Source: Streptomyces sp. 846.5
GTDB lineage: Bacteria > Actinomycetota > Actinomycetes > Streptomycetales > Streptomycetaceae
Direction of reading: 5' to 3'
Length of the DNA: 64,000 nucleotides
NCBI RefSeq assembly: GCF_004365705.1
Contig: NZ_SOBN01000002.1
Coordinates: forward strand, 1,116,001-1,180,000
Part shown: positions 1,024 through 15,044 of the stretch, piece after piece
Layout: each line of letters starts with the position of its first letter
How positions within the stretch are numbered: the first letter of the stretch is position 1
Notes under the pieces: generated by a model
The model's input: only the letters and a program-made list of their open reading frames with translations
What the model was told of the DNA's origin: nothing
The model's database searches: none
Position numbers and translations under genes: made by a program

Positions 1024-2367
1024 CTATGCCTTGAGCCAGTTGAGGAACTGGCTCCAGCGACCTCCGCCCTCCTTGGTCCCCGCAGCGACGGGATTCGTAC
1101 CGGGCGCGGGTGCCGGAGCTGGTGCTGAGCTGGTTCGGTGTGTGATCTTCACTGGGGTGAAGCGGGTCGGAAGGGCGACCAAGCCGCGACTGAACGGCCC
1201 CGGGCGCCACGACAGGCTCTGCTCCGGAACAGTGAGGACGACGTCGGGGACCTGCTTGAGCAGGTTCTCAATCGCGGTGACCGCGATCTGGCGGGCTGGG
1301 TCCTTCGCCGGGCAGCCGTGGGGCCCCGCGCTCCACGCCAGGTGTGCGCGACTGTTCGTCTTCCGAGCCATGGCCAGGTCCGGTCCCGTGTTCGCGGCAC
1401 CGATGCTGACAAGCAGCAGATCGCCCGCCCGGAAGTGCTGGCCAGCGAACTCCATGTCTGTAGCGGGGTAGTGCGCCATGAAGTTCGCCATGGGCGGGTT
1501 CTCCCAGAGCGTGTGATCGATGGCCTCGTCGATGAGCCCGCCCTTGCGGGCGTACTCCTCGTCGGTGAGCACCCGGTGCAGCGTGTTTCCGATGAGGTTG
1601 CGCAGCGGTTCGGAGCCGGAGGCAAGCAGAAGCGCGAGCTGGTAGACCATCTCCTCGTCCGTCAGGTTGGCAGGGTGCTGCAGCAGCCACGAAGTGACGT
1701 CGTCGCCCGGCCGGCTACGCTTGAGCGCCACCAGCTCGCCGCAGGCGCCGAACAGCACGCCGACCGCTTGCTCGGCGTTGACGCCTTCGAACATGCCGGA
1801 GGTGCCGAACATGACCCGGTCACCGATGTCGGCGGGGCAGCCGAACAGCTCGTTGAAGACCATGAGCGATAGCTGCTTGGCGTAGTCACCGAGCAGGTCC
1901 GCCGAGCCGCGCCCCCCGAAGTGGGCGATCAGGAAGTTCGAGACCTGCTCAGTGCTGCGCGCGAGACGGGGCATGTCGATGCGGGCCAGGCTGTCCGTGA
2001 TGGCCTGGCGCAGCCGCAGGTGCTCGGCACCGTCGCTGAACAGGGCATTCGGCCGGTAGGTCAGCGTCGGGACCACCGGACTACCCACGGGCAGCCTGCC
2101 CTCCGCCTGGGCGCGCCACCGCCGCGAGTCCTTACGAAAGTTCACCGGGTCCTGCAGCATGCGCAAGGCAGCCTGGTAGTCGGTGACCAAAGTCGCTTCG
2201 ACACCGGGAGCGAGCTCGACCGGCGCGGTCGGCCCGAAGTGGCGCAGGTAGGCGTAGTAGGCGTGCGGATCTGCGGTGAACTCCGGCTTGAAGAGCGGCA
2301 CACGGCCGCCGACGGAGTGAGCAGGGCAGCCGGGCGGGGGCACCGGGGCGGAAGAGCGAACGTCCAT
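1024..2367 (-). CDS. Cytochrome P450, CYP157-like, lacking EXXR
   Basis: A 447-residue P450 close in style to the CYP157 family of Streptomyces. That family usually accompanies 'conservon' operons (cvnA-D: sensor kinase, roadblock protein, DUF742, small GTPase). The heme-binding loop is visible as HLAWSAGPHGC with Cys352 as thiolate ligand; Trp replaces the usual Phe. The K-helix, where other P450s carry Glu-x-x-Arg, reads DHTLW (residues 284-288), so both Glu and Arg are absent. Loss of EXXR is a known CYP157 peculiarity, but this copy also has Asp where CYP157C1 keeps Glu. No cvn genes lie in the window. The C-terminus has an Ala/Pro-rich extension (about 415-435). Substrate unknown. Confidence 0.85.
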   Translation of the reverse strand: MDVRSSAPVPPPGCPAHSVGGRVPLFKPEFTADPHAYYAYLRHFGPTAPVELAPGVEATLVTDYQAALRMLQDPVNFRKDSRRWRAQAEGRLPVGSPVVPTLTYRPNALFSDGAEHLRLRQAITDSLARIDMPRLARSTEQVSNFLIAHFGGRGSADLLGDYAKQLSLMVFNELFGCPADIGDRVMFGTSGMFEGVNAEQAVGVLFGACGELVALKRSRPGDDVTSWLLQHPANLTDEEMVYQLALLLASGSEPLRNLIGNTLHRVLTDEEYARKGGLIDEAIDHTLWENPPMANFMAHYPATDMEFAGQHFRAGDLLLVSIGAANTGPDLAMARKTNSRAHLAWSAGPHGCPAKDPARQIAVTAIENLLKQVPDVVLTVPEQSLSWRPGPFSRGLVALPTRFTPVKITHRTSSAPAPAPAPGTNPVAAGTKEGGGRWSQFLNWLKA

Positions 2368-3125: not shown

Positions 3126-4286
3126 GTGGACAGCAGCTTCTCCTGCGAAGAACGCTCCATCGGTGGATTCCTACGTGAGCGCTGGGCCGACATGTGCGAC
3201 GGGCTCGGCCTGCAGCAACTCATGACAGAGTCTGCGGCGCGCCAGCTCGGTGCTGTCCTGCGGCCCTGGGGTGACATACCCGTCGGGCGATCGAGCCCGT
3301 TCCCCTCCTATGTCGCCGCCGACGGCTTCCCCGCCGAACTGTCGGTGAAGTGGTCACGCGGGAGACCAGAGCTTCGCATCCTGTTCGAGGCGCTGGGCAC
3401 CTCCAGACCGATCACTGCGGCTTCCAATCGGACCGCCGCCACGGACCTGACGAACCGGCTGGCTAGGGAACCACTGGTCAGCCTGGACCGCCTCCAGAAG
3501 GTGGCCGACGTCTTCGCGCCGAGCGCCGGCCAGGCGGCAGCGCCGGTTCCCGTCTGGCATTCGCTGGCCTGGCTGCCGGGGCATCCACCGGCCTTCAAAA
3601 TCTACTTCGGGCTGTACTCCCTGGCCTTGCAGGAACGTTACGCCAGGGTGGGCGAGGCGATGGAACGCCTCGGGATGGGCACCGCGTGGACCGACACTTC
3701 TGCGGGAGTATCCGGGGGGGCGCAGATTGACGGCGTAGAGCGCGAGCTGGAGTTCTTCGCCCTTGACCTGGACGACAGTGCGCGGAGCCGGGCCAAGGTG
3801 TACTTCCGCAACCACAGCAACAGCGTCGCGGTGCTGCACCAGATGGCATCGCTCGCGCTGACCCATGACCCGGTCCGGGCTCGCTCGGCCTACCGGACTC
3901 TGCTCGGCGACGCCCCAGATGCCGCGGGAAGCACCCCACTGACTTGCTTGGCTTTCCGGCCCGATGTCCCGCGCGCCGACGAGGCGAGCACCTACTTCCG
4001 GGTGTCGAGCTTCACCGCGTCCGACGCGGAAGCCGCGGCCAGAATCGGCGCGCTGCTGGCACACGAGGGCATCGACCCGCAGCGCCACCACGCGCTGCTC
4101 CACGCTGTGGCGCCTCGGCCTCTGAACCAGAGCCGGGGGCTCCAGGAGCTGGTCAGCTACCGCTCGCTCGCTGATGGCGGCGACGTTTCCGTCTACTTCA
4201 GGTTTCCGGTGTACCCCTCACCGGCTGTTCTGCCCAGCCCGCCGTCACAGCAGTCGCGGCGAGTCCTCCGGGAGGAGAACGTATGA
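3126..4286 (+). CDS. DMATS-family aromatic prenyltransferase
   Basis: A 386-residue protein resembling bacterial tryptophan dimethylallyltransferases (ABBA fold; relatives such as SCO7467 and CymD), which attach a dimethylallyl group to an indole. Visible family features: AELSVKWS...PELRILFE around Glu71, the position of the Glu that contacts the indole nitrogen in fungal DMATS; AFKIYFGLY with Lys158; AKVYFRN with Lys224/Tyr226; and VSVYFRFPVYP near the C-terminus. The Lys/Tyr pairs form the diphosphate shield. Length fits the family. The GTG start at 3126 has GGAAG upstream. Its last codons overlap the next gene (ATGA), so it heads a coupled three-gene operon. Substrate not predictable; tryptophan or an indole derivative is the family default. 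Confidence 0.8.
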   Translation: MDSSFSCEERSIGGFLRERWADMCDGLGLQQLMTESAARQLGAVLRPWGDIPVGRSSPFPSYVAADGFPAELSVKWSRGRPELRILFEALGTSRPITAASNRTAATDLTNRLAREPLVSLDRLQKVADVFAPSAGQAAAPVPVWHSLAWLPGHPPAFKIYFGLYSLALQERYARVGEAMERLGMGTAWTDTSAGVSGGAQIDGVERELEFFALDLDDSARSRAKVYFRNHSNSVAVLHQMASLALTHDPVRARSAYRTLLGDAPDAAGSTPLTCLAFRPDVPRADEASTYFRVSSFTASDAEAAARIGALLAHEGIDPQRHHALLHAVAPRPLNQSRGLQELVSYRSLADGGDVSVYFRFPVYPSPAVLPSPPSQQSRRVLREENV

Positions 4287-4921
4287 CCACCATGACCGCG
4301 CCGCTCGAAGCAGTCGCCGCCAGGAACGATCAGCACGTCCGGGCGTACCGCTCCAGTTCCTTGATCGGTCTACTGCAGGACCCCGCGACACCGGGACCCG
4401 TCAAGGACGCCGTGATTGTGTACGTAACACCGTGGTCGAACGCGTTCCAGCGGATGATCAACGCCCGTGCCGCTTTCGAGACCGACCCCCAACTCAAGGC
4501 GCTCGCGATTGAGCACCAGCAGGAAGAGGTCGGCCACAACGAGATCCTGGCGGAGAGCCACGAAAGCGCCCGGACCTCAAGCTGGGATCCCGTCGTCGAG
4601 GCCGGAGCCGCGTGGTTCGTCGAGCAGCTCCGCACCCTGCCCGGCGTGCAGCGCGTCGTCCTGGCCCACCTCGTACTGGAAGCCGGCAGCCTGACCTTCA
4701 GCAACGCCGGGTCCCTGGCCTTTCCCGGAAACAGCTACTTCGCCCTGCACGACGAAGCCGACCTGGAGCACATCGAGATGGGCTACCGCCTGCTCGCCGA
4801 GCGCCAGGACTGGCAACTCGACGACGTCCTCGTTCTTCTCGACCGCGCCTGGCAGATCATCACCATGGTCTCCGACAGGATTGCCGAGCTGGCCCTGCAC
4901 GACGCGGCAGGCCAGGCATGA
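4283..4921 (+). CDS. Heme-oxygenase-fold diiron oxidase-like protein
   Basis: A 212-residue all-helical protein of the TenA/heme-oxygenase-like superfamily. Metal-ligand spacing matches heme-oxygenase-like diiron oxidases (UndA, CADD, SznF): Glu82-x2-His85 in one helix, Glu133 in a later one, and His156-x3-Asp160-x2-His163 in the HDEADLEHIEMG motif. This argues for an O2-activating diiron enzyme (oxidative cleavage, N-oxygenation or desaturation in known members) rather than a thiaminase, since the TenA catalytic Cys is not evident. It starts inside the stop of the prenyltransferase gene with GGGAGGAGAAC as Shine-Dalgarno, and its stop overlaps the next start. It probably acts on the prenyltransferase substrate or product. 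Confidence 0.7.
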   Translation: MTTMTAPLEAVAARNDQHVRAYRSSSLIGLLQDPATPGPVKDAVIVYVTPWSNAFQRMINARAAFETDPQLKALAIEHQQEEVGHNEILAESHESARTSSWDPVVEAGAAWFVEQLRTLPGVQRVVLAHLVLEAGSLTFSNAGSLAFPGNSYFALHDEADLEHIEMGYRLLAERQDWQLDDVLVLLDRAWQIITMVSDRIAELALHDAAGQA

Positions 4922-5742
4922 GCACCCTCCCCCAGGAGACCCTCGACTCCGGTTCCGCCACCGGAATCGCCGAGCGCTGCGCGAACGCGTTCCAGCAGAC
5001 CTTCACCGACCGACTCGTCGCGGCCTACGCCCTCGGAAGTCTGGCGCACGGCGGGTTCGCGCCCGCCGTCAGCGACATCGACCTCGGTCTCGTGCTCAGG
5101 AACTGCCGCCAAGACGACGAACAGACCATCCACCGCGTCACCATCGACCTCCACCAGACGGGGGGTGACTATCAGCGCCTTTCGGTGTTCTGGAGTTCCC
5201 TGCCCGCGCTCCGCGCGAACCAGGACGACGGCAGATTCCCGGCCGTCGACCGACTCGACCTCAAGAACAGCGGCATACTGCTGCTCGGCACCGACGTACG
5301 CCGCGACGTGGAACAGCCAGATGCCCGCGTGCTGCTGATCGACAGCATCGGCTTCGCGCTGGAAGTACTCGCCGCGGGCCCCGTGGTGGCCGACTTTCAC
5401 AGGCCAGAACGCCTCGTGAGCGACATCAGACGGTTCACGAAAGCCGTCCTGCTCCCCGTCAGGTTCCTCTACACCGCCGCCCATGCCGTGCCCGGATCCA
5501 CCGACGACGCAATCCAGTACCACCTAGGGCAGTCCCCCCCGGCCGCGGCAGAGCTCGTCCGTGCCGCGACCCGGGCGCGTCACGGACAGCCAGACTCGGC
5601 AGAGCGCCTGACCGAGCTCCTCCACGCTGAGCTGATCCCGCTCTACCTCTACTACATCGAGAGCTGTCTGATGAGGCTGACCCCCGCCGACAGCGACCTG
5701 GTGCAAGGCCTCACCCACTGGCGATCACAACTCATGGAGTAG
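4918..5742 (+). CDS. Nucleotidyltransferase-fold protein
   Basis: A 274-residue protein with an N-terminal nucleotidyltransferase core: AYALGSLAHGG (Gly40-Ser41) followed by SDIDLGLVL with the metal-binding Asp53-x-Asp55 pair. The rest is helical, as in aminoglycoside or tRNA-type NTases. Family members transfer a nucleoside monophosphate from NTP to a small molecule or protein. The target here is unknown. The ATG at 4918 overlaps the preceding stop (ATGA), so it is translated with the prenyltransferase and diiron genes. In that setting it could adenylylate the pathway product (self-protection or activation), or be a regulatory NTase. No antitoxin-like HEPN partner is adjacent. Confidence 0.75.
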   Translation: MSTLPQETLDSGSATGIAERCANAFQQTFTDRLVAAYALGSLAHGGFAPAVSDIDLGLVLRNCRQDDEQTIHRVTIDLHQTGGDYQRLSVFWSSLPALRANQDDGRFPAVDRLDLKNSGILLLGTDVRRDVEQPDARVLLIDSIGFALEVLAAGPVVADFHRPERLVSDIRRFTKAVLLPVRFLYTAAHAVPGSTDDAIQYHLGQSPPAAAELVRAATRARHGQPDSAERLTELLHAELIPLYLYYIESCLMRLTPADSDLVQGLTHWRSQLME

Positions 5743-6314
5743 GAACGGGAACCCCGCAACCCGGACCTCAGGCTCCCAGGAGCCGGACCGGCGCCATCGT
5801 GATCCCGGCCAGCAAGGCCGCGCAGAGGCGCGGACGGAACCCCGTCCGTGCCTCCTGCTGGTGAGCACACTCCACCGTCTCGACCGGCCAGGTGGGCAGA
5901 GCACCCACCGCGGACGGGCACAGCCGAGCGACGGTCGTCGGTGGACACGGCGCTGGCAAAGGCATCTCCGGGGCCCGGGCGCCCGGGTCCGGGAGGGTGG
6001 TGCCTGGTGCTGGCGCGACGGTCAGGTGGTGCTGGAGGCCTCGGCGTCTCCGAACAGGTAGTCAACACACCGTCCCTGGTCCACCATTCGACGGTCTCCG
6101 GGCTGACGTCGGCCAGCGATGCGATCTGCTTGCGGGTGATCCGTGCAGGCAGGGTGGCAGGGCGTTGGATGAAGTCGTCGATAGCTGTAGCGGCTATAGC
6201 GCACCATCATCGCGTATCCAATCCCCATCTGCCTGCACCAGTCCCGTTCCTCGTCTGATTCGGGCTGCAGGAGGGTGCGCGTCCGAAGCCCGGTAGCGGT
6301 CCTGCGGCGAAATA
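5743..6314 (-). pseudogene. Decayed region with HTH-like remnant
   Basis: This stretch between the operon and the IS holds no intact gene. On the minus strand, about 6190-6040, one frame reads RITRKQIASLADVSPETVEWW, which looks like a helix-turn-helix followed by TRDGVL. It is preceded by an in-frame TGA. A neighbouring frame upstream reads QPESDEERDWCRQMGIGY, so the two may be parts of one gene split by a frameshift near 6195. I cannot name the parent gene. A small palindrome (GGCTCC/GGAGCC, 5771-5784) just after the nucleotidyltransferase stop could be a weak terminator. Confidence 0.35.
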
Positions 6315-8070
6315 CCCAACCCCGGAATTTGACCTCCTGGAAGGCGCCCCGTCCGTGGCGGGGCGCGACCGGCGTCGATGGTGGAGCGCTGGGACCGGGC
6401 CCCGCCCTTCGGGTCGCCCGCGCAGCCGAAGCGGGAGGACTGGGGCATGGGTCGTGTCCGACGGCGGTCGGCCGTGTGGGGCGCGGATGTGAGGGCGTGC
6501 GGTGCCTGCCGCGCGCGGTCGCGGCCTGTCCGGGTGCTTTCCGGGTCGGGGGCGGTCGGGGTGGCGGTGTCGCCGGTGGCCGGTCGGGCCGTCGGGGTGT
6601 GGTTCGGCGTGAGGATTAGGTCGCAGGTGGCGGCTGGTGAACCGCGTCGAACAGGCCCTGGAAGGCGTCTCGCCAGGGCCAGTGGGACCAGGTGGGCGCG
6701 CAGGGTGGCGGTGGTGGCTTTGGCGTGGAAGCGCGAGGCCAGGGCGCCGGCGGCCCGCAGCAGGTTGTGGGACATCGCGCACAGGGTCAGCCACGCGGCG
6801 TTGGCCTGGAAGCTCCCCGACGGCAGGTGGGCCAGCGGTCCGGACTTACCGTCGGCGATCGCCTGCTCGACGACAGCGTGCCGGCGGTGGTCGAGCTCTG
6901 CGTCGAGCATCGGGAAGGGCCTGTCGGTGAAGACGGGGTGGTAGCGCCAGGTAGTGAACAACTCGCCCTGCCCCTGGGTGACTTCGGTGTTCAGCCGTCG
7001 CACCCGGCGCACGATGAGGCGCGCGGTGACCTGCTCGGCCTTCTTGCGTCCGGTGAAGGCGGTGTATTCCGTCTCGGCGACCTGGGCATCGGAGACCGTC
7101 TCGCCGGTGTCCGGGTAGCGGATCGCGGTCCAGGATTCCTGCGGGATGCGCGAGATCGCGGCGGCGATGGAGGGGTTCATGCCGGTGGCCAGGGAGAAGC
7201 GGGTACCGGCCCGGCGGCAGGAGGCGACCACGTCGGCGGTGTAAAACTTGCTGTCCGCGCGCACCAGGCGGATCCCGGTGCCGCCGGCCTCCTTTGCGAC
7301 GGCCAGGGCCTCGGCGACGAAGCTTTCCGCGCCGCGGACGTCGGCGGCCTTGCCGCGGCGCAGGCGTACCGCGCCGATCACGGGCCGGGCGATGGGGGTG
7401 GAGAGGGTGGCCAGGATCGGGTGCAGGGTGCGCTGGCCCTTGAGGCGGCCGACCTCGGCGCCCTGCTTGGCGTGGCCGTAGACGCGGCGGTGGGTGGGGT
7501 CGATGTCGATGAACATCACCTGGTCGGCGCCGGGCAGCAGCGGTGCGTGTCGGGCGAGTTCGGCGAGGAACTGGCGGTGCACCCGGTGCAGTTGGCGGTT
7601 GTGTCCGTGGGTGAAGGACCGCAGGAAGGTGCCGAGGGTGGACGGTGCGCGTATGCCGCCGAAGGCCCGGGCCATCGCGCCGTGCCGCAGTCGGGCGTCG
7701 TCGTCGATGCTGTCCGCTCCGGCACACATGGCGCCGAGCAGCGACATCACCTTCGCGGCAGGGTGGGCGCCGCCGCTGTTGGCAGCCCCGTCAATGCGTA
7801 TCGCGGCGGCCAGGTCCGGCAGTCCGGCCCGCTCGGCCAGGCGGACCAGCGTCAGCAGTCCGGCGTCGGCGATCAGGTTCGGCTCGTCGAACGCAGCGCG
7901 GACCGCCGTGGCGGCATGGGAAGATTGCATCTCGCTGATGTTCTCTCGATCTGTGGACCTGGAACCGTAGGAAGTCCCATCGTCCCAGGTCAGAGGACAT
8001 CCGCGTCATCATGTCCAGGCCCCGACGGATCATTCATCGGTGGATTCGGGCTCAAAGTTCCCCCCGAAGG
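6315..8070 (-). mobile_element. IS1380-family insertion sequence, probably inactive
   Basis: An element of about 1.75 kb around the IS1380-type transposase. Candidate imperfect terminal inverted repeats: the left end at 6315-6334 (reading inward) and the right end at 8049-8070 (read on the minus strand) share a GGAA-TTTGA-CC core. I found no convincing target duplication, so the exact ends are uncertain. Because the transposase is frameshifted (see the pseudogene entry), the copy is probably immobile unless helped in trans. Confidence 0.45.
6616..7930 (-). pseudogene. IS1380-family transposase, frameshifted near its C-terminus
   Basis: The frame opening at 7930 encodes a typical IS1380 DDE transposase: N-terminal LIADAGLLTLVRLAERAGL, a catalytic-core FIDIDPTHRRVYGHAKQGA segment, LVRADSKFYTADVV, and the C-terminal LAHLPSGSFQANAAWLTLCAMSHNLLRAAG. 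After LRAHLV (about 6692) the natural ending, HWPWRDAFQGLFDAV...PPPAT and a TAA stop at 6616-6618, is in a different frame. The loop usually found between these blocks is missing. An internal deletion has therefore shifted the frame, and the in-frame product runs on as nonsense to 6194. Probably non-functional, although a fused protein cannot be excluded. Confidence 0.8.
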
Positions 8071-8338: not shown

Positions 8339-9853
8339 ATGTCCCTGGCATCACTACTCCTGCGCCTGGTGAGACCCGGCGTGGTGACGGCGACGCTCGC
8401 CGCCGCCGCGCTGGCCTTCACCACCGGAACCGCCACCGCGGCTCCGGCACTCACCCAGATCAGCGCCGACCCCTACACCAACACCACCAGCCAGCACGCC
8501 ACCGAGGTCGAGCCGGACACCTTCGCCTACGGCTCCACCGTCGTCTCCGCGTTCCAGGTCGGCCGGTTCAACGACGGCGGCAGCTCCAACATCGGCTTCG
8601 CCGTCTCCACCGACAGCGGCGCCACCTGGACCAACGGATTCCTGCCCGGGATCACCACCCAGGCGGGCGGCAGCTACGCCCGGGTCAGCGACCCCTCAGT
8701 GGCCTACGACGCCAAGCACAACGTCTGGCTGATCTCCAGCATCCCGATCACCGCGTCGGTCACCGTGCCCGCCGTCTTCACCAGCCGCTCCACCGACGGG
8801 GGTCACACCTGGAGCAACCCGGTGACCACCGCCACCGGCTCCGGCCTCGACAAGAACTGGATCGTCTGCGACAACACCGCGACCAGCGCCTTCTACGGCA
8901 ACTGCTACACCGAGTACGACAACAACAGCAACGGCGACCGCATCCAGATGACCACCTCCACCGACGGCGGTCTCACCTGGGGCGCGTCGAAGACCACCGC
9001 CAACAACGCCACCGGCCTCGGCGGCCAGCCCGTGGTGCAGCCCAGCGGCACCGTGGTGGTCCCGATCGCCAGCGCCTCGGAGACCTCGATCCGGGCCTTC
9101 ACCTCCACCAACGGCGGCAGCAGTTGGACCAGCGCCACCACCGTGACCACTGTCAGCACCTACACCGTGCACGGCTCGCTGCGCAGCGGACCGCTGCCCT
9201 CGGCCGAGATCGACGCCGCCGGCAAGGTCTATGTGGTCTGGCAGGACTGCCGCTTCCGCACCAGCGGGGGCTCCTGCACCTCCAATGACATCGTGATGTC
9301 GACGAGCACCAACGGGACCAGCTGGTCGACCGTGGTCCGCATCCCGATCGACGCGACCACCAGCACCGTCGACCACTTCATCCCCGGCCTCGCAGTCGAC
9401 CCGGCGACCTCCGGCAGCACCGCGCACCTGGCGCTGACGTACTACTACCACCCGGTCGCCAACTGCACCGCCAGCAGCTGCCAGTTGGACGTCGGGTACG
9501 TCTCCTCCACCAACGGCGGCAGCACCTGGACCACGGCGACCCAGCTGGCCGGACCGATGAGCCACTCCTGGCTGCCGAGCACCACGCAGGGGACCATGGT
9601 CGGCGACTACATCTCGACCTCCTTCTCCGCCGGAACCGCGCACCCGGTCTTCGCCGTGGCCACCGCCCCCGTCGGTTCGGTCTTCAACGAGGCGATGTAC
9701 ACCCCGACTTCGGGGCTCGCCGCAGCGGCCGGCACCGCGGCCGTGACACCCGCCACCTTCGCGCAGAACATCGCCTCGGCCCGGCTGGCCGTGATCGCCT
9801 ACGCGCAGTGGCTGGCAGCCGGCGGCACCTCGGGGAGCGAGGACAGCCCCTGA
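8339..9853 (+). CDS. Secreted sialidase-like Asp-box beta-propeller protein
   Basis: A 504-residue exported protein. The N-terminus (MSLASLLLRLVRPGV...ALAFTTGTATAAPA) is a Sec-type signal peptide with probable cleavage after the Ala-x-Ala near residue 36. The mature part contains at least six Asp-box (BNR) motifs, S-T-[DN]-x-G-x-[TS]-W, as in STDSGATW, STDGGHTW, STDGGLTW, STNGGSSW, STNGTSW and STNGGSTW, spaced as in a six-bladed sialidase-type propeller. The fold is shared by sialidases, GH74, GH93 and non-enzymatic binders. I cannot identify a catalytic Arg triad by eye, so activity is open. The ATG at 8339 follows GGAAGGGGAGCG. It is monocistronic, converging on the peptidase gene. Confidence 0.75.
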   Translation: MSLASLLLRLVRPGVVTATLAAAALAFTTGTATAAPALTQISADPYTNTTSQHATEVEPDTFAYGSTVVSAFQVGRFNDGGSSNIGFAVSTDSGATWTNGFLPGITTQAGGSYARVSDPSVAYDAKHNVWLISSIPITASVTVPAVFTSRSTDGGHTWSNPVTTATGSGLDKNWIVCDNTATSAFYGNCYTEYDNNSNGDRIQMTTSTDGGLTWGASKTTANNATGLGGQPVVQPSGTVVVPIASASETSIRAFTSTNGGSSWTSATTVTTVSTYTVHGSLRSGPLPSAEIDAAGKVYVVWQDCRFRTSGGSCTSNDIVMSTSTNGTSWSTVVRIPIDATTSTVDHFIPGLAVDPATSGSTAHLALTYYYHPVANCTASSCQLDVGYVSSTNGGSTWTTATQLAGPMSHSWLPSTTQGTMVGDYISTSFSAGTAHPVFAVATAPVGSVFNEAMYTPTSGLAAAAGTAAVTPATFAQNIASARLAVIAYAQWLAAGGTSGSEDSP

Positions 9854-9880
9854 CCCGGCCGGTCCAACGGGACAGCACGG

Positions 9881-9910
9881 CCTGCGACCCCGGAGCCCCG
9901 GGGTCGCAGG
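9881..9910. terminator. Bidirectional hairpin terminator
   Basis: Perfect 13-bp inverted repeat (arm CCTGCGACCCCGG, 9881-9893 and 9898-9910) with a 4-base loop. It sits between the convergent stops of the propeller gene (9853) and the peptidase gene (9926), so it can terminate both transcripts. It lacks a U-tract, as is common in actinomycetes. Confidence 0.8.
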
Positions 9911-9925
9911 CACGTCTGCCGGAGA

Positions 9926-10738
9926 TCAGGCGACCAGCCGGATGGTCCAGAAGTCGGAGGAGAGCCCCGACTCCGTCAGATACGCGTAGGGCAGGGTGAA
10001 GTAGCCGCTCTGGCCCCACCCGGTGCCCCAGGAGTTGCGGACGATGAAGCGCTGCAGGTCGTCGTCGTAGCCCACCGCGAGCACCGCGTGCCCGCCGAGG
10101 ACCTGTTCGCCGACGGCGGGCAGTTGGGCCTCGCCGGTCTTGGCGACGTCCGCGCTCTCGAAACCGGAGTAGACGGTGAAGCCGAAGGCGAAGGGGTAGC
10201 CGTCGGCCAGGCAGCCCTTGAACTGGTTCAGGTCCCGGGTCACCCGCCGGTACACCGTCGCGGTCCACTGCCGGGCGTCCTTGTAGCAGCTGTCGGACGG
10301 CTTCTCCCCCGCCGGGGCGCCGGGCGGGAAGGGCCCGCCGTCGGTGACCGCCGGGGTGTCGTCGTAGGGCCACTCGGTCTCGGGGCAGACACCCAGCGTC
10401 GCCACGCTCTTGATGCCGTCGCGGATCTGCGCCCCGGAGTCGGTGCCCGCGTGACCCTCCATCAACCGCTCGTTGTAGTAGATGAACAGGCGCGAGGGCG
10501 TCCACGAGGGCAGCTGCTGCCGCATCAGCTCGAACTCGAACGCGCCGGCCAGCGCGTTGGCGGTGCAGCTCCCGATCCGGCCCTGGTCGTAGACCGGCGG
10601 AAGGCCGGCCCGCAGATCCATCTTGGGCGGCGGGTTCACCAACGCCAGCCGCGGTGCGGCGTAGACGTGGTCGCGGGCGTCCGGCAGGTCGGGGACCCAG
10701 CCGTAACGGGAGACCTTGCGCGGCGTAGGACTTGTCAT
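9926..10738 (-). CDS. Papain-like (C1A) cysteine peptidase without signal peptide
   Basis: A 270-residue member of peptidase family C1. The active site is complete: Gln52 (oxyanion hole) and nucleophile Cys58 in DQGRIGSCTANA, His217 in GGHAVLAVGYDD, and Asn235 in RNSWGTGWG. The protein starts MTSPTPRKVSRYGWVPDLPDARD, without a signal peptide or long inhibitory propeptide, so it is predicted to be cytoplasmic and made in near-mature form. The short segment YGWVPDLPDARD is shared by bacterial C1 peptidases of this type. Monocistronic; its role and substrate are unknown. Confidence 0.85.
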   Translation of the reverse strand: MTSPTPRKVSRYGWVPDLPDARDHVYAAPRLALVNPPPKMDLRAGLPPVYDQGRIGSCTANALAGAFEFELMRQQLPSWTPSRLFIYYNERLMEGHAGTDSGAQIRDGIKSVATLGVCPETEWPYDDTPAVTDGGPFPPGAPAGEKPSDSCYKDARQWTATVYRRVTRDLNQFKGCLADGYPFAFGFTVYSGFESADVAKTGEAQLPAVGEQVLGGHAVLAVGYDDDLQRFIVRNSWGTGWGQSGYFTLPYAYLTESGLSSDFWTIRLVA

Positions 10739-10783: not shown

Positions 10784-13700
10784 TTACTCTGTGCCGATAC
10801 TGTCAATTGTCGGCGCCGATGTCCATGCGCGGATCGCGTCCGCCAACTCCCCTACGCCGTACTCCTTGAGGACGCTGTAGTGGTCGCCGGTGAGCGGCAC
10901 CACGCGGGGCGGGGCCGCGCTGTATCCGGAGCTGTTCTCGATGAAGGAGTAGTCGTCGCCCGCAGCCTTGAAGATGGTCACCGGGGCGTCGAGGCACCGC
11001 TCCGCGAGCTCGGCGAAGGTGTAGTCGAAGGCATAGGTCTCGGCGACGATCCGGGTGATCCGCTTGATCAGCGCCTCGTCGAGGTCGGGCAGCAGCCGGT
11101 GGACGAAGGCCGTGAAGCCCGCCTCGTCCCGGGCCGCGCGCAGGCAGTCCCGCAGCTCGGGGCCGGTGACGGAGCCGGTGAAGACCGAGAACAGGATCGT
11201 CACATAGGCGGGGTTCCGCCAGTCGGCGTCACGTCCGAACCGGTCCGCGCCGGCGGCGCGCACCGTGGGGTTCCCGGGGCAGATCAGCAGCAGGTTCTCG
11301 ACCTGCTCGCCGAGCCGCTCCAGTTGCCAGGCGGTCTCGAACGCCACCCGCGCTCCGAAGGAGTACCCCCACAGCGTGTAGGGGCCGTGCGGCTGGACGC
11401 GCCGGATCTCGGCGACGTCGGCGGCCGCCATGGCACGCACGGTGGGGTGGGGCGTCTCGCCCGCGTTGATGCCGCAGGCCTGCACCCCGTAGAAGGGCCG
11501 CCCGTCGGCCGTCTCGCGCGCCAGCGGGCGCAGGTTCATCGGGTAGCCGCCCAGGCCGGGCCAGCAGAAGACCGGGGGCGCCGAACTGCCTGCCATCAGC
11601 GGGACCAGGCGGGAGGCAGGCTGGCCCGAGCCGTCCGCGATCGAGTCGTCCGCGATCCGTGCTGCCAGGTCGGCCAGCTTCGGGGTCTCGAAGACGATCT
11701 GGAGCGGCAGTCCGGTCCCGAACTCCCGGTTGATGCGGTTCACCAGGGCGACAGCGGTCATCGAGTTCCCTCCGGCGGCGAAGAAGTCGTCCTCCACCGA
11801 GACGTCCGCGGCGTCCGGGTACTTCAGCGCCCTGGCCCAGGCGTCGGCGAGCCAGCGCTCGTGCGCGGTCGCCGGGGCCACCCGCGCGGTGCGGGTGTCC
11901 GCCGAGCGCACCGCCTCGGAGCCGGCCAGCGCTTTCACGTCGACCTTGCCGTTCGCGGTGAGCGGCAGGCTGTCCAGGACCAGGATCCGGTTGGGGATCA
12001 TGTACTCGGGCAGGAACTGCGCCAGTTCGTCCTTGATGATCTCCGCCGGGCCCCGCATGTGGACGGCGTCCTCCCGCATACCCTCGCTGCGGATCTGCTC
12101 GTCGCTGACCTTGCCGCCGAGGAAGAAGTAGGACGGTCCGGAGGCGATCCCGCACGCCGCCAGGATCTCGTCGACACGCCGGGCCGACGGCAGCGGACTT
12201 CCGCTCCTGGAGCTGTACCCGGAGGACATGAACCCCAGCCGCAGGCCGTTCCGCTGCAGCCGGTGCAGCGTGGCGCCGAGGCCGATGTACTGCAGCCAGT
12301 GCTCCTCGGCGCGGCCGACGGCGGTGATGCCGAAGGCCGACCGCTGGTACACCTGCTGGTTGATGGCGATGACGTGCCTGGACAGTACGAGTTCGTCCGA
12401 GAGCCGGTCGAAGTCGCCGTCCCGCCAGCGGTACTGACCGGCCGGCAGTCCCTCGACGCGCCCGGGGTGGGCCTGGACGTAGATCTCGGTGGCGTCGGCG
12501 GCGGGCGCGCCGTCGTTGCCGCGGATCTCGAACGTGCCCAGGTAGAAGTCGTCGTCCGCGACCTGGAGCCGGTCCTTGACGGCGGGCCGGTGGGCCGAGG
12601 CGCGGATGGCCAGCCCGTAGCCGGGCAGCACCTCCTCGAAGACGCCCAGCATGTGGCCGGTCTCGAACTCCAGCACCTCCTGGATGTTGTTCCTGTAGAC
12701 CGGCTCGATCGCCGCTCTCCGGCCGACGAAGTGCACCTGCAGCGCACCCGGCCGGGCCTCGGCCCAGTCGGAGATCCGCACCAGTGCGTGTTCGACGGGG
12801 TGGTAGTAGTACACACCGGCGCCCAGGCCGTCCAGGCCGCCGGTCTCCAGGTAGAACTGGGTGGCGTAGAGCGCCCCGGGCGAGGCGTACGCGTACTTCG
12901 GCAGCAGCCGCTCCGCGCTGTGGAACTGGCCGAACCACCGCAGCAGCTCGCCCAGTTCGGCGAAGGTCAGCTCGTCGGGGCGGCGGGAGCGGGCGGACAC
13001 CGGGGCCGGGGTGAGCAGGGCCCGCAGGTCGTCGCGGCTCACCTGGCCGCCTTCGTAGAACCGGTAGGTCTTGCGGGCGAAGACCTCGCGGCGCTGGTAC
13101 GCGTTCTCCTGCCCGCCGGGCAGGGCGAGGGCCGGGCGCGCACGCAGGTCCTCGGGGGGTCGGAGTCCCGGGTTGGACAGCTGGGCCCGCACCTGCAGCC
13201 TGCTGCCCTTGGACTGGTGATGGGCGCCGTGGTTCCCCTGGTCCATCAGCGCCGCCTCCTTCGGGTTCAGTTCCACGCAGGCGACCAGGGACTGGAATCC
13301 CGTCCGCTGGTCGTCGGTCACGACCGCGGCCGCGCGGCGCACCCAGGTGTGCTCCTCGACGGCGAGCGCGATCTCGTCCAGCTCGACGCGGTAGCCGCGC
13401 AGCTTGACCTGGTTGTCGCTGCGCCCGGCGAACTGGATCGTCCCGTCCGGGTTCCAGGACGCCAGGTCCCCGGTGCGGTAGAGGCGCTGGGTGGGCAGGA
13501 AGGGGCAGGGGACGAAGCGTTCGCTGGTCTGCTCCGGCCGGTGCAGATAGCCCTGGGCCAACTGCACCCCGCCGATGTACAGCTCACCGGTCTCCCCGAT
13601 GCCGACCGGGGCGAGCCGGCCGTCCAGGATGAAGCACTGGGTGTTGTCGACCGGTGTGCCGATGGCCACCGCGCCGGTGCCTTCGCCGAGCGTGTCCGGG

Positions 13701-14668
13701 TCGACCACATGGGCGGTCGCGTTGATGGTGCACTCGGTCGGCCCGTACAGGTTGACCAGCGTCGCCCACGGCAGCGCGTCGGTGAGGGCGCGGGCCAGCG
13801 GCCGCGAGAGCGCCTCGCCGCCGGAGAAGAGCCGCCGCAGGCCGGTGCAGGACTGGAACCGCTCGGTGTCCAGCAGCGCCTGCAGCAGGGTCGGTACGCA
13901 CTGCAGGGTGGTGACGCCGTGCGCGGTCACCGTGTCGATCAGGGCCTCGGGGTCGCGGTAGACGCCGGGCGCGCCCACGACCACCGTGGCGCCGGTGGCC
14001 GGCGCCAGGATCTCCCACTGCGCGGCGTCGAAGCTCATCGGGGTCTTCTGCAGCACGGTGGCGTCGGCTCCCAGGTGCCCGCAGTTCTGCAGCCACCGCA
14101 TCTGGGAGACGATGCTGCGGTGCCCGATCACCACGCCCTTGGGCCTGCCGGTGCTACCGGAGGTGTAGATGACATAGGCGAGGGAGTCGGGCCGGGGCCC
14201 GGGCGGGACGGCGCCGGAGAACCCCGCGGCCTCGGTGAGGGTCACCACCCGGGTCCCCCGGGGTACGAGCCGGGCCGCGCGGGCCCTGAGATGGTCCTGG
14301 GTCAGCACCATCCGGGTACGGCTGTCCTCGACCATGTACCGGACCCGGTTCTCGGGGTACTCCGGCGACAGCGGCAGATACGCCGCCCCGGCCTGCAGAA
14401 TCCCCCAGGCCCCCACCATCAGTTCCAGGGAGGGCTCGACGTACAGGCCCACGCTCTGGTCCGGCTGCGACCCGAGGTGGTGCAGGTAGGCGGCCACCTC
14501 CCCGGCCTGCTGCCGGAGCTCCCGAAAGGTCAGCCGCCGGTCGCCGAACTCCACGGCGACGGCGTCGGGGCGGATCTCCGCCCGCTGGTCCAGCAGCCCC
14601 GGCAGGCAGGCGGTCGGTTGCAGGGTGCGGCGGTTCAGAGTGGTCAGAGTGGTCGGTGCGGCAGTCAT
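10784..14668 (-). CDS. bpsA/indC-like: Indigoidine synthetase-type NRPS (A-Ox-T-TE)
   Basis: A 1294-residue single-module synthetase matching blue-pigment synthetases (BpsA is about 1280 aa), which convert two L-Gln into indigoidine. Order: adenylation domain (YVIYTSGSTGRPKG, VNLYGPTECTINAT, LYRTGDLASWNPDG); an FMN-dependent nitroreductase-like oxidation domain inserted in the A domain (YQRREVFARKTYRFYEGG to about residue 840); the A-domain remainder with LPLTANGKVD; a thiolation domain with phosphopantetheine Ser in DDFFAAGGNSM; and a thioesterase with GYSFG. The start is set at the second ATG (14668), six bases after GGAGG; the ATG at 14674 abuts the SD. No indA/indB or Sfp-type PPTase gene is adjacent, so a distant PPTase must activate it. 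Confidence 0.88.
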   Translation of the reverse strand: MTAAPTTLTTLNRRTLQPTACLPGLLDQRAEIRPDAVAVEFGDRRLTFRELRQQAGEVAAYLHHLGSQPDQSVGLYVEPSLELMVGAWGILQAGAAYLPLSPEYPENRVRYMVEDSRTRMVLTQDHLRARAARLVPRGTRVVTLTEAAGFSGAVPPGPRPDSLAYVIYTSGSTGRPKGVVIGHRSIVSQMRWLQNCGHLGADATVLQKTPMSFDAAQWEILAPATGATVVVGAPGVYRDPEALIDTVTAHGVTTLQCVPTLLQALLDTERFQSCTGLRRLFSGGEALSRPLARALTDALPWATLVNLYGPTECTINATAHVVDPDTLGEGTGAVAIGTPVDNTQCFILDGRLAPVGIGETGELYIGGVQLAQGYLHRPEQTSERFVPCPFLPTQRLYRTGDLASWNPDGTIQFAGRSDNQVKLRGYRVELDEIALAVEEHTWVRRAAAVVTDDQRTGFQSLVACVELNPKEAALMDQGNHGAHHQSKGSRLQVRAQLSNPGLRPPEDLRARPALALPGGQENAYQRREVFARKTYRFYEGGQVSRDDLRALLTPAPVSARSRRPDELTFAELGELLRWFGQFHSAERLLPKYAYASPGALYATQFYLETGGLDGLGAGVYYYHPVEHALVRISDWAEARPGALQVHFVGRRAAIEPVYRNNIQEVLEFETGHMLGVFEEVLPGYGLAIRASAHRPAVKDRLQVADDDFYLGTFEIRGNDGAPAADATEIYVQAHPGRVEGLPAGQYRWRDGDFDRLSDELVLSRHVIAINQQVYQRSAFGITAVGRAEEHWLQYIGLGATLHRLQRNGLRLGFMSSGYSSRSGSPLPSARRVDEILAACGIASGPSYFFLGGKVSDEQIRSEGMREDAVHMRGPAEIIKDELAQFLPEYMIPNRILVLDSLPLTANGKVDVKALAGSEAVRSADTRTARVAPATAHERWLADAWARALKYPDAADVSVEDDFFAAGGNSMTAVALVNRINREFGTGLPLQIVFETPKLADLAARIADDSIADGSGQPASRLVPLMAGSSAPPVFCWPGLGGYPMNLRPLARETADGRPFYGVQACGINAGETPHPTVRAMAAADVAEIRRVQPHGPYTLWGYSFGARVAFETAWQLERLGEQVENLLLICPGNPTVRAAGADRFGRDADWRNPAYVTILFSVFTGSVTGPELRDCLRAARDEAGFTAFVHRLLPDLDEALIKRITRIVAETYAFDYTFAELAERCLDAPVTIFKAAGDDYSFIENSSGYSAAPPRVVPLTGDHYSVLKEYGVGELADAIRAWTSAPTIDSIGTE

Positions 14669-15044
14669 GTTCATCCTCCGCTGACGGGCGAAATGGGGAC
14701 GGCCTCTGATCTGACGGTGTGATCCGAAGGCGCCCTGAAAGACTGCGCCGCCGCCACCCTCGGGCACGTCAGCCTCTGCCCCGATCTACCGGGTCGCCCG
14801 GCAGTGCTACGACCTGGGTCGTACGCGAAAAGTCAGACTGAGCCCCGATGTGCGGCACCAGGGCGTGCACGGACAATCGGAGGGAATGCCGGAACAGGGC
14901 TCCCCGTCCATGACCGAAGCACCGCATCTCATATGGCTTATGCGGCTGATCGGGTGACGACCGGCCCCTGTCGGGAACAGCTGTGATTCGATCGTCGAAT
15001 CACATGGAATTCCTGCCGGCGCCGACACGACCCTGGAGGTTCCC
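14669..15044. promoter_or_regulatory. Divergent promoter region, bpsA-like / two-component operon
   Basis: About 375 bases separate the synthetase and the unknown-protein/two-component operon. The region has a perfect 23-bp palindrome at 14982-15004 (arms TGTGATTCGA and TCGAATCACA, 3-bp spacer), about 40 bases upstream of the plus-strand operon. A 9-of-10 match to one arm (TGTGATCCGA, 14718-14727) lies about 50 bases upstream of the synthetase start. The palindrome is the right size for a dimeric response regulator such as the one encoded at 16847. Joint control of both transcripts is an inference. Open frames here look spurious. Confidence 0.55.

Follow-up and report, generated by a model that had tools for sequence, protein, structure and literature searches.

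Actinomycete genes for indole prenyltransferases have been described in company with a conservon and sometimes a cytochrome P450, in clusters of two types (Ozaki 2013, PMC3617294). Type A carries a tryptophanase and yields 6-dimethylallylindole-3-carbaldehyde, while Type B, exemplified by SCO7467/SCO7468, carries a flavin monooxygenase (FMO) and proceeds through an aldoxime to 5-dimethylallylindole-3-acetonitrile, as set out in the same paper (PMC3617294). Here we describe three adjoining genes in a stretch of DNA from Streptomyces sp. 846.5 (hereafter the window; 64,000 nucleotides, contig NZ_SOBN01000002.1, G000:C2:1116001-1180000), which lies within a 9.03-Mb genome and was grouped with Streptacidiphilus in our comparisons. 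The trio encodes a DMATS-type prenyltransferase, a heme-oxygenase-like diiron oxidase/oxygenase (HDO) and a protein with a nucleotidyltransferase-like fold (NT). It probably represents a third type of conservon-linked indole-prenyltransferase cluster, with the HDO taking the side-chain step.

Described HDOs vary widely in substrate and in site of action, SznF and HrmI being examples that carry out N-oxygenation (PMC13108848). Two of them use halogenated tryptophan: AetD is a nitrile synthase that converts dibromo-tryptophan to indole-3-carbonitrile (PMC10654658, PMC13108848, PMC11611611), and SktA converts bromo-tryptophan to skatole (PMC13108848). No word beginning with "prenyl" occurs in the main text of that HDO review (PMC13108848), and the words nucleotidyltransferase and heme oxygenase are absent from the main text of the Ozaki paper (PMC3617294). 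A search of open-licence PMC text for conservons together with prenyltransferases returned, among the matches listed, only the Ozaki paper, and one for heme-oxygenase-like diiron proteins together with prenyltransferases returned none. A further paper naming both an indole prenyltransferase and a heme oxygenase-like protein (PMC8120280) was set aside, as in the text available the two terms concern different clusters for ribosomally synthesised and post-translationally modified peptides. The original prediction, made from the window's sequence, had known of no described pathway with this trio, and none appeared among the matches listed from the same open-licence text. The best reading is of an uncharacterised third version of a known kind of cluster.

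The DMATS, HDO and NT genes form a conserved unit

The three genes lie on one strand of the window, joined by two 4-bp ATGA overlaps (4283-4286 and 4918-4921), just as had been predicted:

3126..4286, + strand: DMATS-type aromatic (tryptophan) prenyltransferase, 386 aa, GTG start (PF11991, TIGR03429, PDB relatives, tree group)
4283..4921, + strand: HDO, 212 aa (AlphaFold, Foldseek, ligands E82, H85, E133, H156, D160, H163)
4918..5742, + strand: NT, AadA-like nucleotidyltransferase, 274 aa, GS...DxD (AlphaFold, Foldseek to AadA)

We compared 35 loci, of which 33 came from a scan of genome contigs with the HDO, the others being the window and one more congener (L012). The co-occurrence of the three families, which the original prediction had proposed to examine, was found throughout: in this HDO-based comparison the order DMATS-HDO-NT on a single strand was present in 35/35 loci. 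The linkage is real and conserved, not a chance arrangement. The loci belong to Amycolatopsis (15), Streptacidiphilus (7, including two assigned by kinship), Streptomyces (4), Kibdelosporangium (3) and Plantactinospora (2), with one each in Pseudonocardia, Actinoplanes, Actinocatenispora and a record labelled Rhodococcus rhodnii. The residues singled out in the original prediction all stand at the positions given there, and the motifs are invariant in 35/35 loci.

The HDO and NT open reading frames overlap by 4 bp in 31/35 loci and those of DMATS and HDO in 12/35; starts in this table were chosen by rule, so small differences in the gaps mean little. In 6/35 loci (L032, L034, L036, L038, L039 and L045) DMATS and HDO are naturally fused in one frame of 567-586 codons. 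The fusions fall in two separate places of the DMATS tree, one comprising Kibdelosporangium and the record labelled R. rhodnii, the other Plantactinospora.

Close relatives of the HDO were present in 9 genomes, plus one distant relative, in a draw of 394 genomes from the family, and in 2 genomes, both of the same family, in a draw of 394 genomes from the class. The scan relied on short peptide patterns and picks up close relatives only, so that the 35/35 count is uninformative about remoter HDOs. Genes in the loci were called with a home-made GC-frame picker, which missed the NT in many of them; the counts of trio and conservon genes are therefore based on tblastn, with cut-offs that miss remote relatives.

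Two side observations concern the fused loci. The record labelled R. rhodnii (L032, JOAA01000020.1) has ten flanking gene families in common with Kibdelosporangium L034 and clusters with Kibdelosporangium in both the CvnD and the DMATS trees, and its label or contig may be wrong. Directly upstream of the fused gene of L034, on the same strand, Pfam recognises an HD-domain protein, a cytokinin-dehydrogenase-like FAD protein and a GNAT acetyltransferase; relatives of the HD-domain and FAD proteins occur in L032 and a relative of the GNAT protein in L039.

The HDO occupies the position of the tryptophanase and the FMO

The setting of the trio is that of the Ozaki clusters. In the genome from which the window was taken, four genes ending 195 bp before it (L011:15233-17805) encode HATPase, Roadblock/LC7, DUF742 and GTPase proteins (Pfam) and, by these assignments, are a conservon. 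With at least three conservon genes in the compared stretch as the measure, a conservon was found by tblastn in 31/35 trio loci, that genome included; it was not found in the compared stretches of L021, L022, L025 and L028. In Amycolatopsis (15), Pseudonocardia and Actinoplanes it directly precedes the trio in the same orientation, with 89-276 bp between it and the start of DMATS. The original prediction was right that the trio is tightly linked, but its account of the operon missed the conservon, which lies outside the window, the P450 gene at 1024-2367 and the DMATS-HDO fusions.

For comparison we turned to DMATS genes that stand outside trios. A DMATS match was obtained in 78 of 297 family genomes, 8 of which carry the trio, and 60 regions from 58 of the other 70 genomes were read for context; G217, G279, G139, G269, G090, G144, G181, G168, G045 and G264, as well as a weak place in G151, were left out. 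These 60 regions comprised 34 with conservon and FMO, 12 with conservon and tryptophanase, 1 with conservon and a nonribosomal peptide synthetase (NRPS), 9 with NRPS and no conservon, and 4 with none of these. Seven further regions, five of them outside the family, contributed 2 with tryptophanase and conservon, 1 with FMO and conservon, 1 with FMO in which no conservon was found, 2 with NRPS and 1 with none. In sum, the 67 non-trio regions divide into FMO 36, tryptophanase 14, NRPS 12 and none 5, and a conservon accompanies 50 of them. Two FMO reference proteins and one tryptophanase reference protein were identified by Pfam or NCBIfam, and the others by tblastn to these.

By tblastn, neither HDO (0/67) nor NT (0/67) was detected in the non-trio DMATS regions, and neither FMO (0/35) nor tryptophanase (0/35) in the stretches compared around the trios. 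Type B and trio clusters alike combine a DMATS-family gene, a conservon, often a P450, and one tryptophan side-chain enzyme; where Type B has an FMO, the trio has HDO and NT, a different DMATS group and, in some taxa, a DMATS-HDO fusion. Type A offers the same frame with a PLP (pyridoxal phosphate) tryptophanase in place of HDO and NT, and its loci L172 and L175, from outside Streptomycetaceae, have a long CvnA (830-932 aa), a feature also of the Amycolatopsis trio loci. The trio thus very probably belongs within the Ozaki frame of conservon-linked indole-prenyltransferase clusters. An argument from the lack of a second DMATS gene in trio genomes was dropped, as about 1.3 double carriers are expected from 48 clusters in 289 other genomes.

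The HDO is predicted to share its fold and ligand pattern with AetD

By sequence the HDO is almost invisible: its only Pfam match, PF14518, stands below the cut-off (E 0.066), and neither single-sequence nor profile searches of PDB sequences returned anything relevant, AetD included. A comparison of folds was therefore needed. The AlphaFold2 model, built like that of the NT from 34 aligned sequences, has a mean predicted local distance difference test (pLDDT) score of 92.3. Foldseek against the PDB placed 3dde best (E 2.5e-4), followed by TenA proteins, UndA (5.2e-4), AetD (1.1e-3) and CADD (E 2.6e-3, TMq 0.76), and PolF was also matched; identities were 8-17% among the best 50 rows. The AetD structures matched include ones solved with tryptophan derivatives. 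The model supports a heme-oxygenase-like, all-helical fold, as had been predicted.

The ligand residues add to this. E82, H85, E133, H156, D160 and H163 are invariant in 35/35 proteins, which completes, by residues, a set of three histidines and three carboxylates, again as originally claimed; H78 and E81 are likewise invariant in 35/35, and the pattern H-x3-[DE]-x2-H, E, H-x3-[DE]-x2-H is present in 34/34 aligned rows. The corresponding residues of AetD are given as D76, H79, E140, H172, E176 and H179; H72 lies close to a different metal site (PMC10654658). Their spacing within the motifs, H72 included, equals that of the trio HDO. AetD thus resembles the trio HDO in fold and in its three-histidine, three-carboxylate pattern, though not by any relevant sequence match. 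A ring-substituted tryptophan is likely to be a substrate feature common to AetD, SktA and the trio HDO, brominated in the former two and, as we propose, prenylated in the last.

The nearest relatives of the HDO found outside trios are cupin-HDO proteins in Embleya (L171:8548-9597, plasmid NZ_CP108785.1) and Streptacidiphilus G001 (L018:8913-10052), whose HDO parts are 46% and 35% identical to it, respectively. They retain the ligand pattern and differ by an additional N-terminal cupin domain. Their gene settings are other than that of the trio, and no DMATS or NT match was found in the stretches compared. The Embleya gene follows what reads as an alcohol-dehydrogenase-like gene, at a place where the plasmid table lists no gene.

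The NT resembles AadA in its predicted fold

Family profiles say little about the NT. PF01909 gives E 0.012 and 16.4 bits against a cut-off of 21, and in NCBIfam only two models of aminoglycoside nucleotidyltransferases (ANTs) match, at 12 bits against cut-offs of 340 and 400. The AlphaFold model (mean pLDDT 93.1) was matched by Foldseek over nearly its full length to AadA (5lpa, E 9.5e-8, 19% identity), then to ANT-3,9 and AAD(9). A profile search matched 7uy4 (E 1.3e-4), and hhalign an AadA-like protein (E 8.6e-8, 24% identity). Together with the motifs G40-S41 and D53-x-D55, the model supports a two-domain AadA-like fold with a GS...DxD core, which bears out the earlier assignment as a nucleotidyltransferase.

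In the 34 aligned rows D53, D55, D104 and D111 are invariant, and acidic residues occupy positions 62 (where the window has Asn), 67 and 103 in 31/34. Between D55 and D104 these rows hold no invariant acid, and on strand 88-94 no position is acidic in half or more of them. We take this strand, with loose support from hhalign, to lie opposite the AadA strand that carries the catalytic Glu87 named in the title of 5lpa. The NT therefore shares the two-domain fold and GS...DxD with AadA and ANT(3'')(9) and differs from them by its biosynthetic setting and, apparently, by the lack of a conserved acid on the strand so placed. Solved ANTs of these kinds are 12-19% identical to it, and it falls far below the family cut-offs. 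A standard ANT was set aside on the NCBIfam cut-offs and the apparently missing acid; the protein may still work as a nucleotidyltransferase.

Two further candidates were rejected. An origin as a phage or defence protein would draw on one weak PHROG match (E 0.019) and on the PADLOC models PDC-S09 (1.3e-4) and Cyclase (3.5e-4), which cover the nucleotidyltransferase core only. An NT-like match in G615, split in two and located close to or at the ends of contigs, led to no DMATS or HDO.

The trio DMATS enzymes form a group of their own

The first gene satisfies the DMATS family profile (PF11991, E 6.6e-13, 49.2 bits, cut-off 25), in line with its original assignment, and relatives were found among PDB chains. 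Its match to TIGR03429 (E 3.2e-25, 89.2 bits) is under the curated cut-off of 163.85, a value reached by just 2/78 of the genomes with a DMATS match (draw of 297). E71, K158, K224 and Y226 are invariant in 35/35 loci; we take E71 to be the catalytic glutamate and the Lys/Tyr residues to bind the diphosphate. In a tree of 56 of 95 rows, including 24 of the 35 trio proteins, a branch supported at 100/99 divides the trio DMATS from all the others, those of Type A and Type B included.

The closest DMATS outside the trios, in L097 and L098, are about 40% identical to that of the window, and the 15 kb compared there gave no hit for HDO, NT, conservon, FMO or tryptophanase. The protein beside DMATS in these two loci was checked as a divergent HDO and is not one; its sequence reads as HEAT-like.

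Conservon and P450 point to a possible exchange at one slot

The history of the proposed exchange was examined in a CvnD tree of 58 rows, namely 31 trio, 14 of 34 FMO, 12 tryptophanase and 1 other (L172 and L175 not included). The six trio conservons of Streptacidiphilus are nested among those of FMO type, with the FMO-type locus of congener G012 as their neighbour, and the other 25 trio conservons lie beyond a supported branch; two changes of label are forced by supported branches. Long branches make the positions of L052, L051, L086 and L133 uncertain. Two FMO loci of the same genus have conservon proteins 77-93% and P450s 70-77% identical to those of the Streptacidiphilus trio loci, and the window's own P450 is 70-73% identical to that of two FMO-type clusters of congeners.

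With the conservon nested among FMO-type ones and the trio DMATS standing apart, the conservon and P450 of Streptacidiphilus seem to descend from a Type B-like locus, and DMATS, HDO and NT to have arrived as a cassette. Four trio loci (L023, L024, L026 and L027) have rtcB and a major facilitator superfamily (MFS)-like gene, the latter named by sequence reading, beside cvnA, on its upstream side, as does FMO-type L101 of congener G011, with identities of 77-83% and 68-69%, respectively. In the stretch compared, rtcB was not shared by the window's locus or L012. The picture of a replacement at one site rests on this one rtcB-side flank. In L101 itself CvnD appears as two overlapping frames (9688-10298, - strand), so that the gene is possibly broken or affected by a sequencing error.

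A proposed pathway and its alternatives

We propose the following order of events. As its family suggests, the DMATS would add a dimethylallyl group to L-tryptophan. The HDO, judging by its slot, its fusion and its fold, would take prenyl-tryptophan from the DMATS, hold it at the diiron centre through the amino and carboxylate groups, as in AetD, and oxidatively break or rearrange the side chain to give a prenylated indole nitrile, skatole or oxime. More tentatively, the NT might move a nucleotide onto a later intermediate or the product, and the conservon would respond to that product or control its making. Since the HDO stands in the slot of two side-chain enzymes, is fused to DMATS and shares the fold and pattern of AetD, prenyl-tryptophan can be named as its substrate with reasonable confidence. 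The slot, being that of tryptophanase and FMO, points to the tryptophan side chain as its target rather than to generic tailoring. Indole prenylation coupled to oxidative tailoring, as first suggested for these genes, agrees with this and is incomplete, having missed both the known Ozaki frame and the side-chain target. A fuller version is possible but doubtful: a diiron oxygenase coupled or fused to a tryptophan prenyltransferase would carry out a new side-chain reaction, AadA-fold nucleotidylation would lead to a nucleotidylated or nitrile-type prenyl-indole signal working with a G-protein-like conservon, and tryptophanase, FMO and HDO would have been exchanged in one slot.

Several observations weigh against a third cluster type with an HDO side-chain step. 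TenA proteins, which are not HDOs, rank level with UndA and above AetD in Foldseek, so the fold match alone is no proof of a diiron enzyme and the ligand pattern carries more weight. The order of the Fe1 ligands in AetD is unlike that of other heme-oxygenase-like proteins, and sequence alone can mislead here (PMC10654658). The other two types have no NT (0/67), which leaves the NT unexplained by the analogy of slots. The trio DMATS stand apart as a group of their own, with 26-30% identity to the six enzymes of Types A and B used for comparison, so acceptor and ring position may differ. Conservon and P450 are missing in 4/35 and 28/35 loci, respectively, and neither can be essential. No match above 45% to trio loci was seen for the far flank of L101, nor for either flank of L100, the second FMO-type locus of a congener, and the single DMATS match found in 8/8 trio genomes is not significant by itself.

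The distance of the trio DMATS, together with the breadth of HDO substrates and sites (PMC13108848), would also suit oxidation by the HDO at the prenyl chain or indole ring instead of the amino-acid side chain, or a DMATS whose acceptor is a cyclodipeptide, tyrosine or another aromatic. We regard this as unlikely, if deserving of notice: the slot is that of two side-chain enzymes, AetD and SktA act on substituted tryptophan (PMC13108848), and the 35 trio loci hold no relative of a DMATS-linked NRPS, a search that did not include cyclodipeptide synthases. A slightly poorer prospect is that the NT protects its host, as an enzyme of the ANT sort that inactivates the pathway product or a related toxic compound made by DMATS and HDO. 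The near full-length fold match to AadA, ANT-3,9 and AAD(9) and the profile matches to 7uy4 and the AadA-like protein speak for it; they are offset by the ANT models of NCBIfam, matched at 12 bits where 340 and 400 are called for, by a small prenyl-indole with no obvious hydroxyl to modify, and by the 4-bp NT/HDO overlap in 31/35 loci, which is typical of biosynthetic genes.

A little less likely again is an HDO acting as an N-oxygenase that yields a prenyl-indole acetaldoxime, the oxygen of which the NT would adenylylate so that loss of AMP gives the nitrile, HDO and NT together replacing the FMO and a dehydration to which no enzyme is assigned. The HDO does occupy the FMO position, N-oxygenation is known from SznF and HrmI (PMC13108848), and the NT accompanies the HDO in 35/35 loci. 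An NT lacking a conserved acid on the strand of the AadA glutamate might moreover suit a nucleophile that needs little help. The proposal is weakened in that adenylyltransferases of this fold are not known to use oximes. Candidate roles for the NT are nucleotide transfer to an intermediate, oxime activation and protection, activation or self-protection having been the two suggested originally. Finally, the conservon could be a coincidental neighbour, given that actinobacterial genomes carry many conservons and 4/35 loci have none nearby; we consider this very improbable, with a conservon in 31/35 trio loci from two conservon lineages (L172 and L175 not being in the tree) and in 50/67 other DMATS regions.

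If a third cluster type with an HDO side-chain step is the right reading, a small and bounded gene set, present in many named actinobacteria of strain collections, would be available in the search for new HDO chemistry on tryptophan, and the natural DMATS-HDO fusions would be at hand for enzymology. The conservon-linked pathway would then retain its prenylated-indole theme while the chemistry of one step is swapped, and the purpose of conservon-linked prenyl-indoles could be tested through three versions in related species.

The linked P450 and other neighbouring genes

One further gene of the window belongs to the conservon setting:

1024..2367, - strand: cytochrome P450 of the conservon-linked kind, divergent from the trio; weak family matches, below cut-offs

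It has the heme-ligand cysteine (AGPHGCP) and lacks the K-helix EXXR (EAIDHTLW). A relative lies near the trio in 7/7 Streptacidiphilus loci and 0/28 others, a 24% match in L025 being an unrelated P450. Among 52 homologues of at least 45% identity, 7 of them from trio loci, the cysteine is present and the K-helix EXXR absent in 52/52, and Pro or Ala stands in 52/52 where the I-helix Thr is expected. Such EXXR-less, conservon-linked P450s (homologues in L100-L145) occur with the FMO, tryptophanase and HDO types alike. CYP157 P450s have been described as conservon-linked and without EXXR (PMC3599690), and the P450 of the window appears CYP157-like by that description. A divergent AlkB-rubredoxin gene present in 13 loci, and identified by Pfam in one of them, was rejected as a tailoring enzyme; together with its reductase it resembles an operon for alkane hydroxylation.

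The trio is closely followed by an IS1380-family transposase (6194-7930, - strand), whose family match ends at residue 418/578, far short of the end of the reading frame. Further on, a single-module NRPS (10784-14767, - strand) contains AMP-binding, PP-binding and thioesterase domains (Pfam), with a long insert within the adenylation domain that is reminiscent of indigoidine synthetases.

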